Source: Acidobacteriota bacterium (GTDB taxonomy: Bacteria; Acidobacteriota; Terriglobia; Acidiferrales; UBA7541). From it: a stretch of DNA of 35,009 nucleotides. The position numbers and the translations under genes were made by a program. The DNA is taken from positions 1-35,009 of the forward strand of contig QHYJ01000176.1 in assembly GCA_003223255.1 (NCBI GenBank). Direction: 5' to 3'. The notes beneath the pieces were generated by a model. That model did no database searches. It had not been told where the DNA came from and saw nothing but the letters and a program-made list of their open reading frames with translations. Of this stretch, positions 8,270 to 13,940 are shown in pieces; positions within the stretch are counted from its first letter, which is position 1, and every line of letters begins with the position of its first letter.

Positions 8270-10099
8270 TTGAGTGGTTTCATTTGCATCCTCCATTGGG
8301 ACAACGCGCCGATTGACCGGGCGCTGCTCGAATCCCTGACCGATTTTCTGTCTTTTCGAGGTCCAGACGCGTGCGAAGTTTGCCTCGATGGCTCCATCGG
8401 CATGGGTCATGCTCTGCTGCGAACGACGCACGAGTCGAAAAACGAGCGGCAGCCGGCGAGTCTCGAAGAACGCTACCGGATTGTCGCGGATGCCCGGCTG
8501 GACGCTCGGGAGGAACTCATCGATGAGCTGCAGCGGACTGGGCGTAACGTTTGCCCAGACATGCCGGACGGCGATTTGCTTTTGCATGCCTATGCGGCTT
8601 GGGGCGCATCGTGCGTCGATCACTTGCTTGGGGATTTTTCTTTCGCGCTCTGGGACGCCCGCTGTAAACAACTTTTCTGCGCCAGGGATCATTTTGGTGT
8701 CAAGCCCTTCTACTATGCGAGCATCGGCGCGCTTGTTGTCCTGAGTAACACGCTGAATTGCATCCGGCACCATCCAGCCGTCTCGGCACAGCTGAACGAC
8801 CTCGCGATTGCTGATTTTCTGCTATTCGACACGATCCGGGAGTCGGGAGCTACGTCTTTCCGCGACATCCAGAGGCTGCCACCCGCGCACATTCTTGCGT
8901 GCGAGCAAGGAAGAATTTCCGTTCGCCGCTACTGGACGCTGCCAGTGAGCGACCCGATTCATCACAAGCGGCCGGGCGAATGCCTTGACGAATTCCGGGA
9001 ATTAATGGATCGCGCTGTCGCAGACCGCATGAGAATGGACAGTGTGGCGGTGTTGATGAGCGGAGGGCTCGATTCTCCCACCGTGGCGGCGATCGCCAAG
9101 CGGGCACTAAATGGCAATAAGACCCCTGCCGGATTGCGCGCCTATACGGAAGTGTTTGAAAGGCTGATTCCGCACGAAGAACGCCGGTATGCCGAACTCG
9201 TTGTGGGGGCGCTGAAAATCCCGATTGAATTTCAAGTGAGTGATGAGATCGGGTTGTGGAAGGATGCAGATCAGCACGGGAATGGTTGGCCCGAGCCCAT
9301 ACATTCGCCGTTCTCCGATGGTGGGCTGAGCCAGTTACGCCAAGTTGCAGCCGGAAACTGTGTAGCTTTGACCGGATTTGGAGGCGACCCCGCACTTTCG
9401 TGTCAGCTTTCCGTCCATTTTTCCCTGTTGCTTAAGAACAGGCAGATTCGTCGAGCGCTGAGCGATGTGGTGCGATACTTCGCTGCGGAAGGCAGGTTCT
9501 CGCGGTTGTACCTTCGCACGCGCTGGCAGATATGGTTTGGAGACAAGAGTCAAACTCCGCAGTATCCCGTATGGCTGAACCAGGACTTGGAAAAGCCCCT
9601 GGGTTTGCGCGAGCGTTGGGAAACGTTTATGCGCAGTCCGGCCCGCCCCGGAGCCTCACGCGCAACAGCCCAGGAGGCAGTGGCCGATCCCTTTTGGCCA
9701 AACCTGTTTGAGGGTTACGATCCCGGTGTGACAAGCATCCCCGTGGAAGTTCGCCATCCCTTTTTTGACCTTCGGCTTGTAACCTTCTTGCTGGCTTTGC
9801 CAGCGCTGCCCTGGTGCTCCGACAAGGAGCTGCTGAGAGAGGCTGCTCGCGGCGTCCTGCCGGACGCGGTGCGGCTGCGGCGGAAGTCACCGCTCCCGGC
9901 CGACCCTTTGATTGCGCTTCTCGAGCGGCCCGAATCAAAGTGGGTGGATTCTTTTGAAGCCGTCCCGGAGCTCGGTCGTTACGTGGAGCGGAAACGCATC
10001 CCGAAAGTGTTTGGGGAAAAAGATGCTTGGACAGCGTGGATTCATTTGCGTCCGCTCAGTCTGAACTTTTGGTTGCGGTCGAGGGCGGCAGCGGGATAG
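8270..10099 (+). CDS. Asparagine-synthetase-like lasso-peptide macrocyclase (C protein)
   Basis: A 609-residue AsnB homologue. In lasso peptide pathways this enzyme adenylates an Asp/Glu side chain and closes the macrolactam ring. The N-terminal class II glutaminase-like domain (about 1-200) starts MSGFICILHW, so the Cys2 nucleophile of true asparagine synthetases is Ser. A functional ammonia-producing site is therefore absent, as in many lasso cyclases. The synthetase domain keeps the PP-loop SGGLDS at 264-269 and GFGGD at 369-373. The latter replaces the GEGGDE of ordinary AsnB, again cyclase-like. The start is TTG at 8270, with AGGGG nine bases upstream. The precursor peptide gene starts 19 bases after its stop, which makes the lasso-type assignment strong. 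Ordinary asparagine synthesis is unlikely. Confidence 0.88.
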   Translation: MSGFICILHWDNAPIDRALLESLTDFLSFRGPDACEVCLDGSIGMGHALLRTTHESKNERQPASLEERYRIVADARLDAREELIDELQRTGRNVCPDMPDGDLLLHAYAAWGASCVDHLLGDFSFALWDARCKQLFCARDHFGVKPFYYASIGALVVLSNTLNCIRHHPAVSAQLNDLAIADFLLFDTIRESGATSFRDIQRLPPAHILACEQGRISVRRYWTLPVSDPIHHKRPGECLDEFRELMDRAVADRMRMDSVAVLMSGGLDSPTVAAIAKRALNGNKTPAGLRAYTEVFERLIPHEERRYAELVVGALKIPIEFQVSDEIGLWKDADQHGNGWPEPIHSPFSDGGLSQLRQVAAGNCVALTGFGGDPALSCQLSVHFSLLLKNRQIRRALSDVVRYFAAEGRFSRLYLRTRWQIWFGDKSQTPQYPVWLNQDLEKPLGLRERWETFMRSPARPGASRATAQEAVADPFWPNLFEGYDPGVTSIPVEVRHPFFDLRLVTFLLALPALPWCSDKELLREAARGVLPDAVRLRRKSPLPADPLIALLERPESKWVDSFEAVPELGRYVERKRIPKVFGEKDAWTAWIHLRPLSLNFWLRSRAAAG

Positions 10100-10118: not shown

Positions 10119-10268
10119 GTGACGTCGAATTCGCGGGAAGGTAGCAAGAAAAAGCCATACCAGAAACCTAACCTCCGCGTCTACGGAGACATCCGAACGA
10201 TGACCCAGACCGTCCCGAGAGGGAGCGGAAAGGCAGACGCCACAAAGGGCTCCAATAAAACTCACTGA
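10119..10268 (+). CDS. Lasso-type RiPP precursor peptide (49 aa, GTG start)
   Basis: A small gene missed by length filters. GTG at 10119 has GGAGG at 10108-10112, six bases upstream. The peptide contains the canonical lasso leader signature Y14-x2-P17-x-L19-x3-G23-x5-T29 (KPYQKPNLRVYGDIRTMTQ), recognised by the B1/RRE component and marking the leader end by the penultimate Thr. With canonical cleavage the core is TVPRGSGKADATKGSNKTH (residues 31-49): strongly basic, Gly-rich, without aromatic or aliphatic plugs. The only acidic residue in it is D40, at core position 10, outside the known 7-9 ring range. The gene lies between the cyclase (19-base gap) and the kinase (21-base gap). Leader identification is firm; core boundary and topology are open. 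Confidence 0.88.
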   Translation: MTSNSREGSKKKPYQKPNLRVYGDIRTMTQTVPRGSGKADATKGSNKTH

Positions 10269-10289: not shown

Positions 10290-11300
10290 TTGTCAGTATC
10301 GCATACTGTCTATGGGCTGCGAGTTGCAGCCAACATAGCTATCCCCGGCATCTCCCCACGGCTTGATTCAAACGCGTATGATGTACGAGTGCGGCTAAGA
10401 AAGTGGCCTAAATTCCCCTCGACATTTCTTGAGTCCATTGAGGTTTTCCATACGAGTTCAAACGTGATGGCCGGCGGCCAGCCAAACCTGCGCGTCGGTC
10501 TGTTCCCCGGCGGAGAGCATTTTGGCTTCTTTTATGGGGATGGAGCGCGATTCATCGTCGACCGCCGCGGATGCGAAGTGTGGGCTGATTGGCCGGAAGA
10601 TTATTCGCTCGAAGACGCTTGCACCTATTTGCTCGGGCCGGTGATGGGATTTGTGTTGCGCCTCCGCAGAACGGTTTGCCTCCATGCGAGTGCCGTGGCC
10701 ATAAATGATCGCGCTATTACGCTGGTGGGCCCTCCGGGTGCTGGCAAATCAACCGCCGCGGCAGCCTTTGCGCGCGCAGGGTTCCCGGTCCTTTCTGACG
10801 ACGTCGTTGCGCTTGTTGACCATGGAACCGAGTTTCTTGTGCCTCCGGGTTATCCCAGGGTGAACTTGTGGCCGGATTCAGTTCGGAGATTATTTGGATC
10901 CGAAAATGCTCTGCCGCGCATCGCGCCCACGTGGGACAAGCGTTACTTGGCACTTGGCCAGAACGGCCACGGTTTCGCTTCCAGCCCGTTACCGCTCGGG
11001 GCCATCTATACCCTGGACAGTCGCAACGCAGCCGTTAGCAGTCCTGTCTTGGACGAAATTTCCGGTGAAGAGGCATTCATGGCGCTCGTGGCCAACACGT
11101 ATGTGAACTATCTTCTTGACCAGGAGATGCTGCGCACAGAGTTTGATGTGCTTGGCCGCTTGGTCTCGAGCATCCCTATTCGTCGAGTGCGGCCTTCCGC
11201 CGAATCCTCGGCCACCTTCAACCTTTGCGGGTCCATTGCTGCTGACGTCAAGCGAGTGATGACACGCGCTGCTGCCACTGCAGCTGCAGTACGCGGATAA
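10290..11300 (+). CDS. HPr-kinase-like RiPP peptide kinase
   Basis: A 336-residue protein whose C-terminal half resembles the HPr kinase/phosphorylase catalytic domain. It has HASAV with H132, the P-loop GPPGAGKST at 147-155, and the metal-binding or general-base acidic pair SDDVV at D170-D171. The N-terminal 120 residues are divergent and may bind substrate. Homologues in lasso clusters (PadeK, ThcoK) phosphorylate the C-terminal residue or side chain of the precursor. The core here ends SNKTH and has several Ser/Thr candidates. The start is TTG at 10290, with GAGGA at 10281-10285. It follows the precursor by 21 bases and precedes the methyltransferase by 7, one transcription unit. The role as a tailoring kinase is inferred from family plus context. 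Confidence 0.85.
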   Translation: MSVSHTVYGLRVAANIAIPGISPRLDSNAYDVRVRLRKWPKFPSTFLESIEVFHTSSNVMAGGQPNLRVGLFPGGEHFGFFYGDGARFIVDRRGCEVWADWPEDYSLEDACTYLLGPVMGFVLRLRRTVCLHASAVAINDRAITLVGPPGAGKSTAAAAFARAGFPVLSDDVVALVDHGTEFLVPPGYPRVNLWPDSVRRLFGSENALPRIAPTWDKRYLALGQNGHGFASSPLPLGAIYTLDSRNAAVSSPVLDEISGEEAFMALVANTYVNYLLDQEMLRTEFDVLGRLVSSIPIRRVRPSAESSATFNLCGSIAADVKRVMTRAAATAAAVRG

Positions 11301-11307
11301 ACCCCCC

Positions 11308-12456
11308 ATGTACAGCCTGGGTGCCTATGGCTCGATGATAGCGGATCGCGTTCGCGTCGACGCTTATAAGGAAGCTCTACGAAAGACCGTTCGGAAGGGA
11401 TCCGTTGTCGCGGAAATTGGCACGGGACCGGGTGTCTTCGCGGTGCTGGCATGCCAGCTCGGGGCCGAACGAGTCTTTGCCATCGAGCCGGCTGAGATTA
11501 TTCAAGTGGCGCGCGAGGTTGCTGCCGCCAATGGCTGCGCTGGCAGAATCGAGTTTTTCGAGGGGCTTTCTAGCGGGGTGACCCTTCCCGCTCGGGCCGA
11601 CGTCATCCTCTCCGATCTCAGGGGCATCCTCCCGCTTTTCGAGCGCCACATCCCCGCTATCGCGGACGCACGGCGCCGCTTTCTTGCCCCCGGCGGGACC
11701 ATTGTTCCACGAAGGGACACCCTTTGGGCTGCGATCGTGGAAGCTCCAAGACCCTACGGCGAAGTCGTGGATCCTTGGGACCTGAATCCTTTCGGTCAAA
11801 ACCTGAGTCCAGTGCGGCAGCTCGCGGTGAACAATGTGCAAAAAGTGCGTGTAAGTCCTGCCCAGCTTTTGACTGGGCATAAACTCTGGGCCACGCTGGA
11901 TTATGCCAGCATTCAAAACCCTGATGTTCGGGGGAATTTGGAGTGGACAGTGGACCGCACCGGAACCGGCCACGGAATCGTCGTGTGGTTCAATGCGGAT
12001 CTCGCGGAAAACATAGGCTTCTCCAATGCTCCCGGTGCACCCGAGACCATCTACGGATCTTTCTTCTTCCCCTGGACGCAACCTATGCCTTTAAGACAGG
12101 GGCAAACCGTGTGTGTCGACCTCGCGGCGAAGTTGGTCGAAAATGACTACCTCTGGCGATGGACCACGCGCATCAAGCCGCTCTTGGGATCAAGCACTTC
12201 TCCTGTCCATTTTGACCAATCGCAGTTTGCCGGAGCGGTCTTGTCCGCCGCGCAGCTTCACAGAATCGCCGCGGATTATATTCCCCGGCTATCGGACGAG
12301 GGAGTCCTGCGCCGCAGAACTTTCGAGTTGATGGACGGGAGAGCTTCGCTCGAAGAAATCGCGCACAAGCTCGTGGCCGAATTTCCCCATCGATTCTCGA
12401 GCTGGCAACAAGCTTTGTCGTACGCCGGTTTGCTCTCGCAAGAATTCAGCCGCTAA
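11308..12456 (+). CDS. PRMT-like SAM methyltransferase with C-terminal PqqD-like (RRE) tail
   Basis: A 382-residue class I methyltransferase in the protein arginine methyltransferase fold. It has SAM motif I (VAEIGTGPG, 34-42), the acidic end of strand 2 (FAIEP), motif DVILSDLRG where classical PRMTs have the double-Glu hairpin, GGTIVPRRDTLW, and a beta-barrel-like middle part. The PRMT Glu loop is not conserved, so arginine may not be the target. Residues about 322-380 (LSDEGVLRRRTFELMDG, then LEEIAHKLVAEF and a final GLLSQE) look like the winged-helix part of PqqD, the leader-binding RRE or B1 module. The fusion would bring the methyltransferase to the leader. It is the last gene of the operon; no strong Shine-Dalgarno before ATG 11308, so coupling to the kinase is likely. 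Confidence 0.8.
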   Translation: MYSLGAYGSMIADRVRVDAYKEALRKTVRKGSVVAEIGTGPGVFAVLACQLGAERVFAIEPAEIIQVAREVAAANGCAGRIEFFEGLSSGVTLPARADVILSDLRGILPLFERHIPAIADARRRFLAPGGTIVPRRDTLWAAIVEAPRPYGEVVDPWDLNPFGQNLSPVRQLAVNNVQKVRVSPAQLLTGHKLWATLDYASIQNPDVRGNLEWTVDRTGTGHGIVVWFNADLAENIGFSNAPGAPETIYGSFFFPWTQPMPLRQGQTVCVDLAAKLVENDYLWRWTTRIKPLLGSSTSPVHFDQSQFAGAVLSAAQLHRIAADYIPRLSDEGVLRRRTFELMDGRASLEEIAHKLVAEFPHRFSSWQQALSYAGLLSQEFSR

Positions 12457-12520: not shown

Positions 12521-13702
12521 TCAGTCTTTGCCGGCGCGACTATATTTTCGTGCCAAGCGGAAGGGCCGGCGCAAGGCGTCGAGTACAGGATTGCTGCTCA
12601 TCATCTTGCCATCGGCCTGCCAGTCCTCTTCCGTGGGTGAAAAAGAAAGTCTTAGCAGATACGCCGGAGCCGCGAGAAAGTTGCCGCGCATGCGCAGGCG
12701 AAACGCCGCGCGTTCGAATAGACCGAGGTGAGCGTACCCCGGGGCAGGCAGCCAGTGAAGCACGCGCGCCGCAAGCTTTGCGGCCACGGCGTCTTCCCGC
12801 ACGCGCGCAGCAATCGGTTCTGGAAGTTCGGCATGGAGAACATCCATAGCCAGCCGCAAGCCGGTGTGTAGTAGATGCTCGGCCTGCACGGCGTTTGCGG
12901 ACAAGCCAGCGCGCTCCCAACCGATGCCCGGTTGCCGCGCCATCAAGCCCGCGACGTCCGCGATCGAGCCGAGTCTCTTCCAGAAATGCTTCGCGCCATG
13001 AACGCAAATAAGCACGAGATGATCCTCGAGTGAAGGTGCGGGCACTTCATGCCCATCGACGCGCACGCGAATCCGCCGGGCGATGAAATCTTCGATGGGA
13101 ACGGGACGGGGAAAATAACGCAGCGTCAAGTTATTGTGAAGCTCGACGAGCAATTTCGAATCAGGCTTGCAGAAAAGATATTGCCCCGGAATTTTGCCTG
13201 CCCGAATGGCGTCGAGAGAAACCGTTGCTTGGTAGCCAGAACCAATCAGCAACCCCGTAGCGCGCCGGATGTCCCGCTGCCGTACGAGCAGGTCGAGATC
13301 GCCGTAGCTTCGCATTGCTGGGTCGGCGTAAGCCTCGACAGCTAGGACTGGTCCCTTGATGACCAATGCTGAAATTTCATTTCGGTTGAAAAGTTCCAGC
13401 AGACGAAAGAGCTCTCCCGTCAAGCGAAGCGTGAGGAAATTCTGCTCGCGCTGTCGTTCGAGTAGCGCCTGTTGGATTTCGGGAGGCATGGCGGCGTCGC
13501 AATCGTTCAGGCAAGCCGCGAGCTGTCCAACCAGGCCATGCTTGTCAGCGAGCATGAGCAAGCGAGGCCAGTCCACGGTGGGAAAATATTGCCGCAGCCG
13601 TTCTTTGTCGCTCCAAGGAGAAACGCATTCTCGCAGCGCGGTCCATTCGCGCTCGAACGCGCGGTTGTCGGAGATCCGCTCCGCTGAAAGCAGTTCAGCC
13701 AT
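12521..13702 (-). CDS. Nucleotidyltransferase family protein (NTP_transf_5 type, RiPP-associated)
   Basis: A 393-residue cytoplasmic protein with the nucleotidyltransferase signature of this family: IKGPVLAVEAYADPAMRSYGDLDLLV, with the GDLDLLV metal-binding aspartates and the upstream Lys. A helical region follows, containing HGAKHFWKRLGSIADVAGLM. Members are frequent beside lasso clusters carrying a kinase (PadeN in the paeninodin cluster), though their function there is not established. It is convergent with the methyltransferase (64-base gap), so it is not in the same transcript. ATG 13702 is chosen because AGGGA lies just upstream. Assignment to the RiPP system rests on family co-occurrence. 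Confidence 0.85.
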   Translation of the reverse strand: MAELLSAERISDNRAFEREWTALRECVSPWSDKERLRQYFPTVDWPRLLMLADKHGLVGQLAACLNDCDAAMPPEIQQALLERQREQNFLTLRLTGELFRLLELFNRNEISALVIKGPVLAVEAYADPAMRSYGDLDLLVRQRDIRRATGLLIGSGYQATVSLDAIRAGKIPGQYLFCKPDSKLLVELHNNLTLRYFPRPVPIEDFIARRIRVRVDGHEVPAPSLEDHLVLICVHGAKHFWKRLGSIADVAGLMARQPGIGWERAGLSANAVQAEHLLHTGLRLAMDVLHAELPEPIAARVREDAVAAKLAARVLHWLPAPGYAHLGLFERAAFRLRMRGNFLAAPAYLLRLSFSPTEEDWQADGKMMSSNPVLDALRRPFRLARKYSRAGKD

Positions 13703-13940
13703 GGTGATCCCTGAGCTTATCAATGAATCGGTTTGCTCTCACGAATCGAATCGTGGCTTAGGGTGGTTTTCTGGAGAGCTTACAAATCAAAACGACGGGG
13801 CCATCCAACCTCAGGAGTCAAACCTGGGCAAGTTACTTTCTCCTCGCAATGAGCCCACACGATAAGCCAGCTCGCGGCTTCGACGGCGCCGTTTGGAACT
13901 TCTCCCCATTTTTGTTTGTCAGGGTCCGGAAACCGTGGAG

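Follow-up and report, generated by a model that had tools for sequence, protein, structure and literature searches.

A putative lasso-tailoring PRMT-like methyltransferase carrying a degenerate, wingless PqqD domain at its C-terminus

What is the role of a PqqD-like tail on a methyltransferase that is encoded within a lasso-peptide gene cluster? The question is raised by a stretch of 35,009 nucleotides from an Acidobacteriota bacterium (contig QHYJ01000176.1 of assembly GCA_003223255.1; hereafter the window), in which one gene of such a cluster encodes an enzyme resembling the protein arginine methyltransferases (PRMTs). A preceding sequence-only reading had taken the end of this protein for the winged-helix part of PqqD/B1 proteins, by which recognition of the precursor leader would be coupled to methylation. 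On balance, the analysis favors a lasso-tailoring PRMT-like enzyme whose last 53 residues form a degenerate PqqD domain with the helices kept and the wing lost, probably serving to dock the enzyme onto the pathway. The parts of the gene concerned are as follows.

11308 to 12456, forward strand: PRMT-like methyltransferase with PqqD-derived tail, an open reading frame of 382 amino acids (PF22528 PRMT_C over cut-off).
12223 to 12294, forward strand: conserved segment (QST-F-G...LR...P-L), residues 306 to 329, a low-confidence coil (pLDDT about 50 to 60) in part aligning with the beta-hairpin of PqqD.
12295 to 12453, forward strand: PqqD-like three-helix tail, residues 330 to 382 (pLDDT about 92 to 97 in the AlphaFold model of the tail alone; hhalign; 3g2b first in PDB).

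By Pfam, methyltransferase families cover residues 22 to 130 and PRMT_C, the PRMT oligomerisation barrel, residues 138 to 273; the tail begins C-terminal to this barrel, outside the PRMT domains, and the tail-coding part at 12271 to 12456 corresponds to residues 322 to 382 plus the stop codon. The full protein was modelled by AlphaFold with a pLDDT of 89.9, and Foldseek with this model gave PRMT6, PRMT1 and PRMT8 on top at E about 1e-29 to 1e-28 (PRMT6, 4e-29). PF22528 and Foldseek agree on the PRMT fold, a methyltransferase core plus the PRMT_C barrel, and together with AlphaFold and the neighbouring genes (see below) they bear out the claim of a PRMT-like methyltransferase, encoded in a lasso cluster, with the tail fused to it. 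Since the full-length matches listed were all PRMTs, the tail was folded alone.

The tail carries D343-G344, L348-E-E-I-A352 and G374-L-L376, the motifs on which its resemblance to PqqD/B1 had been proposed, and is conserved over 38 homologous PRMT proteins. By hhalign, the profile of 20 tails matched that of 29 PqqD/B1 proteins with a score of 30.8 (E 1.4e-5, probability 80%), against 16.0 for the best of 300 column-shuffled tail profiles and 10.4 for the reversed one. Given this conservation and the distance from the shuffled maximum, the likeness to PqqD lies above chance. In the aligned register, 'P-x-L-(N)-x-x-G' of the tail falls on 'Y-x-L-N-x-x-G' of PqqD, and 'DG-x-x-sLeeIA' on 'dG-x-t-v-e-e-I'. 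A single-sequence Pfam search of the window tail gave no significant match (HNH_repeat E 0.043; PqqD E 0.17), and the PF05402 cut-off of 23.4 bits was reached neither by this tail (12.7) nor by two others (12.8 to 14.4); PqqD was found as a weak Pfam match with agreeing register in three separate tails. Besides PRMT fusions, the hidden Markov model (HMM) of the tail matched stand-alone proteins (1e-5 to 1e-4); the one tested, L124, passes the Pfam cut-off for PqqD. The tail profile also matched the N-terminal domain, PqqD-like by eye, of membrane proteins of about 720 amino acids.

When the tail-only model was searched against 350,542 PDB chains, PqqD 3g2b came first (Foldseek E 0.65), and PqqD 5sxy and the lasso B1 protein 6jx3 were in the same list. 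VIA-align also placed 3g2b first (Z 6.9), with 6jx3 at Z 5.8 and a further lasso B1, 5v1u, at Z 5.4. The absence of a family from these fold lists was given no evidential weight. For the helical half, similarity to PF05402 was thus found both at the profile level (hhalign) and at the fold level (Foldseek, VIA), and profile comparison, HMM matches and PDB fold search agree that the tail is related to PqqD/B1. The tail model also matched, over 45 columns, the mycobacterial methyltransferase Rv2067c (8hkr), whose C-terminal region may be a helical appendage of similar kind.

The wing fared differently. Two AlphaFold models were made, one of the full protein and one of the tail alone with 20 homologues; the tail of about 53 residues was predicted as confident helices at 330 to 341, 348 to 358 and 366 to 381, and neither model had a strand after the PRMT barrel. 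The region where strands were expected, about residues 306 to 329, was the low-confidence coil listed above, and in the alignment it holds prolines and charged residues where the PqqD strands have alternating hydrophobics. The PDB alignment to PqqD spans the helical part, for instance residues 37 to 86 of 3g2b. The RiPP recognition element (RRE; RiPP, ribosomally synthesized and post-translationally modified peptide) is defined by a βββ-ααα architecture, with the leader held in the α3/β3 cleft (PMC12710340), and the tail as modelled departs from it. Thus, of the earlier proposal, the relation to PqqD/B1 was supported, and the winged, leader-binding form was not: structure prediction, by which it was to be checked, returned PqqD-like helices and no beta-wing.

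The distribution of the tail points to the lasso pathway. Genes for C, B1, B2, HprK or NTP5 were found within the fetched stretch for 36 of the 38 distinct tailed PRMTs, and the remaining two (L033, L177) start at most about 250 bases from a contig end, whereas 12 of 16 tailless bacterial PRMTs were without lasso genes in the fetched stretch and two more tailless ones (L057, L058) had weak or ambiguous lasso matches only. The tailed set was found partly by searches with the tail itself, a selection independent of lasso context. The tail is therefore near-exclusively associated with lasso clusters; as a general feature of PRMTs it was rejected, tailless PRMTs being the rule outside such clusters. 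In the tree of methyltransferase cores the tailed proteins form three groups, and well-supported branches force at least two changes, which implies more than one gain, loss or exchange of the tail. The tailed family is widespread in the phylum of the window, with members in several of its families, and includes two gammaproteobacterial metagenome-assembled genomes (L101, L103). At L052 the PRMT gene is mostly lost, and the tail is still readable behind a fragment of C. Two contig ends of G132 were considered as a single PRMT gene and rejected as such, since their overlapping protein parts are identical at 92 of 95 positions and represent separate copies. PRMT-like domains were also seen within very large proteins, possibly modular synthases, at L056 (>3,000 amino acids) and L058 (>1,800 amino acids). 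The tailless PRMT of L048 (6697 to 8052, genome G001) has an N-terminal extension of about 150 residues that is winged-helix-like by eye; a Pfam search of this extension gave no match.

In many relatives, discrete B1 and B2 genes adjoin the tailed PRMT, so the tail is no replacement for B1; substitution for B1 was rejected also on account of an orphan B1-B2 pair in the genome of the window. The lasso cluster of the window has A and C, and neither B1 nor B2 was found in the window; the orphan pair lies on another contig (G000:C62; L053, 9862 to 10696), where no cyclase or precursor was found nearby. Apart from members of its own genus and family, the nearest relatives of this pair are the B1/B2 proteins from the clusters of G132 and G275, of which C and HprK are likewise among the closest to those of the window. 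The orphan pair, conserved at L053 and at L196 to L199, keeps its flanking genes in the species G448, G511, G581 and G623; three of these (G448, G511, G581) likewise have clusters without B1/B2. We interpret this arrangement as a split lasso pathway, in which B1 and B2 would act in trans from the orphan locus in the species of the window. At L099 (8087 to 9004), a frame of 306 amino acids has another domain followed, at its end, by a second PqqD domain; it lies in a lasso cluster that already has B1.

As to the mechanism, the tail would dock the methyltransferase onto the pathway; its most likely partner would be the B1-precursor complex, or else the precursor itself. B1 would supply leader recognition, in the species of the window together with B2 in trans, and the tail would bring the methyltransferase to the bound substrate. 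Free B1 strongly accelerates a lasso HPr-like kinase (PMC10368454), and B1 can therefore help to present the precursor to tailoring enzymes. Docking to the B1-precursor complex is, we infer, the simplest model; since the beta-strands that grip the leader are missing from the predicted tail, docking is more likely than leader binding in the textbook way.

Several observations weigh against this assignment of the tail as a degenerate docking domain. The fold scores are modest, Foldseek E being 0.65 and VIA Z 6.9 (<8) lying in the range of common three-helix arrangements. A tailless PRMT is present at L132 inside a lasso cluster that has a tailed copy too, and that of L048 is immediately adjacent to the lasso cluster in G001, which has a tailed PRMT of its own; the tail is therefore not obligatory. 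In addition, residues 306 to 329, conserved and left unmodelled, could form strands on binding, which would favor direct binding of the leader. The tail might then be a true leader-binding RRE that couples recognition and methylation, and its near confinement to lasso clusters, the conservation of this segment despite predicted disorder, and the reach of the PqqD alignment into the hairpin region ('P-x-L-N-x-x-G' versus 'Y-x-L-N-x-x-G') agree with it; but strands are missing from both models, the segment has prolines and charges in place of the hydrophobic alternation, the PDB alignment covers the helical part of 3g2b (37 to 86), and a discrete B1 is present in many tailed clusters. We consider this RRE unlikely, keeping it in the account because the segment might fold on binding. 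It is equally doubtful that a wingless PqqD derivative in a PRMT-fold enzyme still recognizes the lasso leader, by folding on binding or through its helices alone; if it did, it would represent a new kind of leader-recognition module, together with a new lasso methylation.

The same lack of a wing, the commonness of three-helix arrangements and the modest fold scores would also suit a helical cap, PqqD-derived or merely PqqD-like, that stabilizes the methyltransferase or its dimer and takes no part in substrate recognition. We regard such a cap as improbable, since the tail is missing from PRMT homologues outside lasso clusters, and since its presence follows the lasso context in three branches of the tree that are separate from one another. 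Homeodomains, forkhead and the Lrp/Fur winged helices appear in the fold-search lists as well, as expected if the tail were an unrelated helix-turn-helix, DNA-binding or other, with the PqqD match due to convergence of small helical bundles. The hhalign score far over the shuffled controls, the sequence matches to Pfam-PqqD proteins and the first rank of PqqD in the PDB fold search make this explanation very hard to sustain. A docking domain derived from PqqD is the reading that we favor.

The chemistry of the enzyme was considered from the loop that binds arginine in PRMTs.

11611 to 11649, forward strand: position of the PRMT double-Glu loop, SDLRGILPLFERH (residues 102 to 114), aligned with SEWMGYGLLHESM of mouse PRMT6.

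In the window protein the first Glu of this loop is replaced by Asp and the second is kept, unlike an arginine N-methyltransferase with both; the loop reads SD(L/I)RG in most of the clade of the window versus SEWMG in PRMT6. As judged from the alignment, the first Glu is gone from most of the tailed proteins, for which reason the target is probably not always arginine, and in the clade of the window a group other than arginine is probably methylated. Of the tailed proteins in this alignment, both Glu are kept only by the clade of L038, L040 and L139 (G096, G123 and G165), where cores are Arg-rich, whereas several cores of the window clade have no Arg; with both Glu kept and Arg-rich cores, arginine methylation is still likely in the former. 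Lys or Arg as a universal target was rejected, because the cores of L035 and L099 have neither. In most cores from the genus and family of the window, (K/R)-T stands at the C-terminus or at most two residues before it; this is a candidate methylation site, not universal in the family.

The other genes of the lasso cluster in the window are the following.

8270 to 10099, forward strand: lasso cyclase C, asparagine-synthase-like (NCBIfam NF033535, E 1e-104, 351 bits, below the cut-off of 525; Asn_synthase, GATase_7).
10119 to 10268, forward strand: candidate for the lasso precursor A, with leader YQKPNLRVYGDIRTMTQ and core TVPRGSGKADATKGSNKTH (24.9 bits against NF033528 lasso_cyano, short of its cut-off of 33).
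10290 to 11300, forward strand: HPr-kinase-like lasso kinase (TIGR04352 HprK-related kinase A, E 2.5e-13, below its cut-off).
12521 to 13723, reverse strand: NTP_transf_5 nucleotidyltransferase, a usual partner in lasso clusters (PF14907, E 2.9e-50).

The HprK-like kinase gene is a conserved neighbour of tailed PRMTs, and the NTP_transf_5 gene adjoins them in many relatives; kinases and nucleotidyltransferases of such kind are among the lasso tailoring enzymes (PMC8498205, PMC10368454). A near-identical precursor, YQKPALRVYGDIRTMTQ-SVPKGTGKVDALKGQNKTH, is located at the equivalent place in the related genome G511. If the core starts two residues past the leader Thr, the first acidic core residue is at position 10 in seven precursors (the window, L165, L166, one of two in L167, L168, L169 and L170) and at position 11 in the second precursor of L167. 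Known lasso rings have the acidic residue at positions 7 to 9 (PMC9266682), and position 10 would mean rings of ten residues or else a shift of the cleavage site; no ten-residue lasso ring was found in a literature search.

In the open-access literature, neither a PRMT-fold enzyme in lasso clusters nor a PqqD-derived domain fused to one was found, and the present assignment predicts an undescribed methylation of lasso peptides. The tailed family is also a natural setting in which to ask whether the helices of PqqD have a function without the leader-binding strands, and genome mining by RRE tools that demand the βββ-ααα fold may miss such tails.

Compared with known systems, the enzyme shares the Rossmann methyltransferase and the beta-barrel of PRMT1, PRMT6 and PRMT8, its top PDB matches, but differs in the Asp of the double-Glu loop (SDLRG), in TIYG in place of THW, and in the additional C-terminal PqqD-like tail. 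This tail has in common with PqqD and discrete lasso B1 (3g2b, 5sxy, 6jx3, 5v1u) the three-helix half, the in-register pattern 'L-x-x-x-G...L-DG...sLeeIa..l...f' and the lasso-cluster context, but it is without the predicted beta-strands, hence without the beta3/alpha3 leader cleft, and forms the C-terminal end of a PRMT-like methyltransferase. The C-terminal O-methyltransferases of StspM and lassomycin type (PMC8498205, PMC9266682) likewise act on lasso precursors, but this type was modelled on a mitomycin 7-O-methyltransferase with other catalytic residues, and a PRMT fold or PqqD tail is not described for them (PMC9266682). The RiPP-associated protein isoaspartyl methyltransferases (PIMTs) LihM, TceM and OlvSA are also methyltransferases of RiPP clusters with an added C-terminal domain thought to aid substrate binding (PMC13001092); they differ in having the PIMT fold, in methylating aspartate, and in a C-terminal domain with a WxxxGxP motif that is not described as PqqD-like, and those of lasso clusters modify the threaded peptide (PMC13001092).
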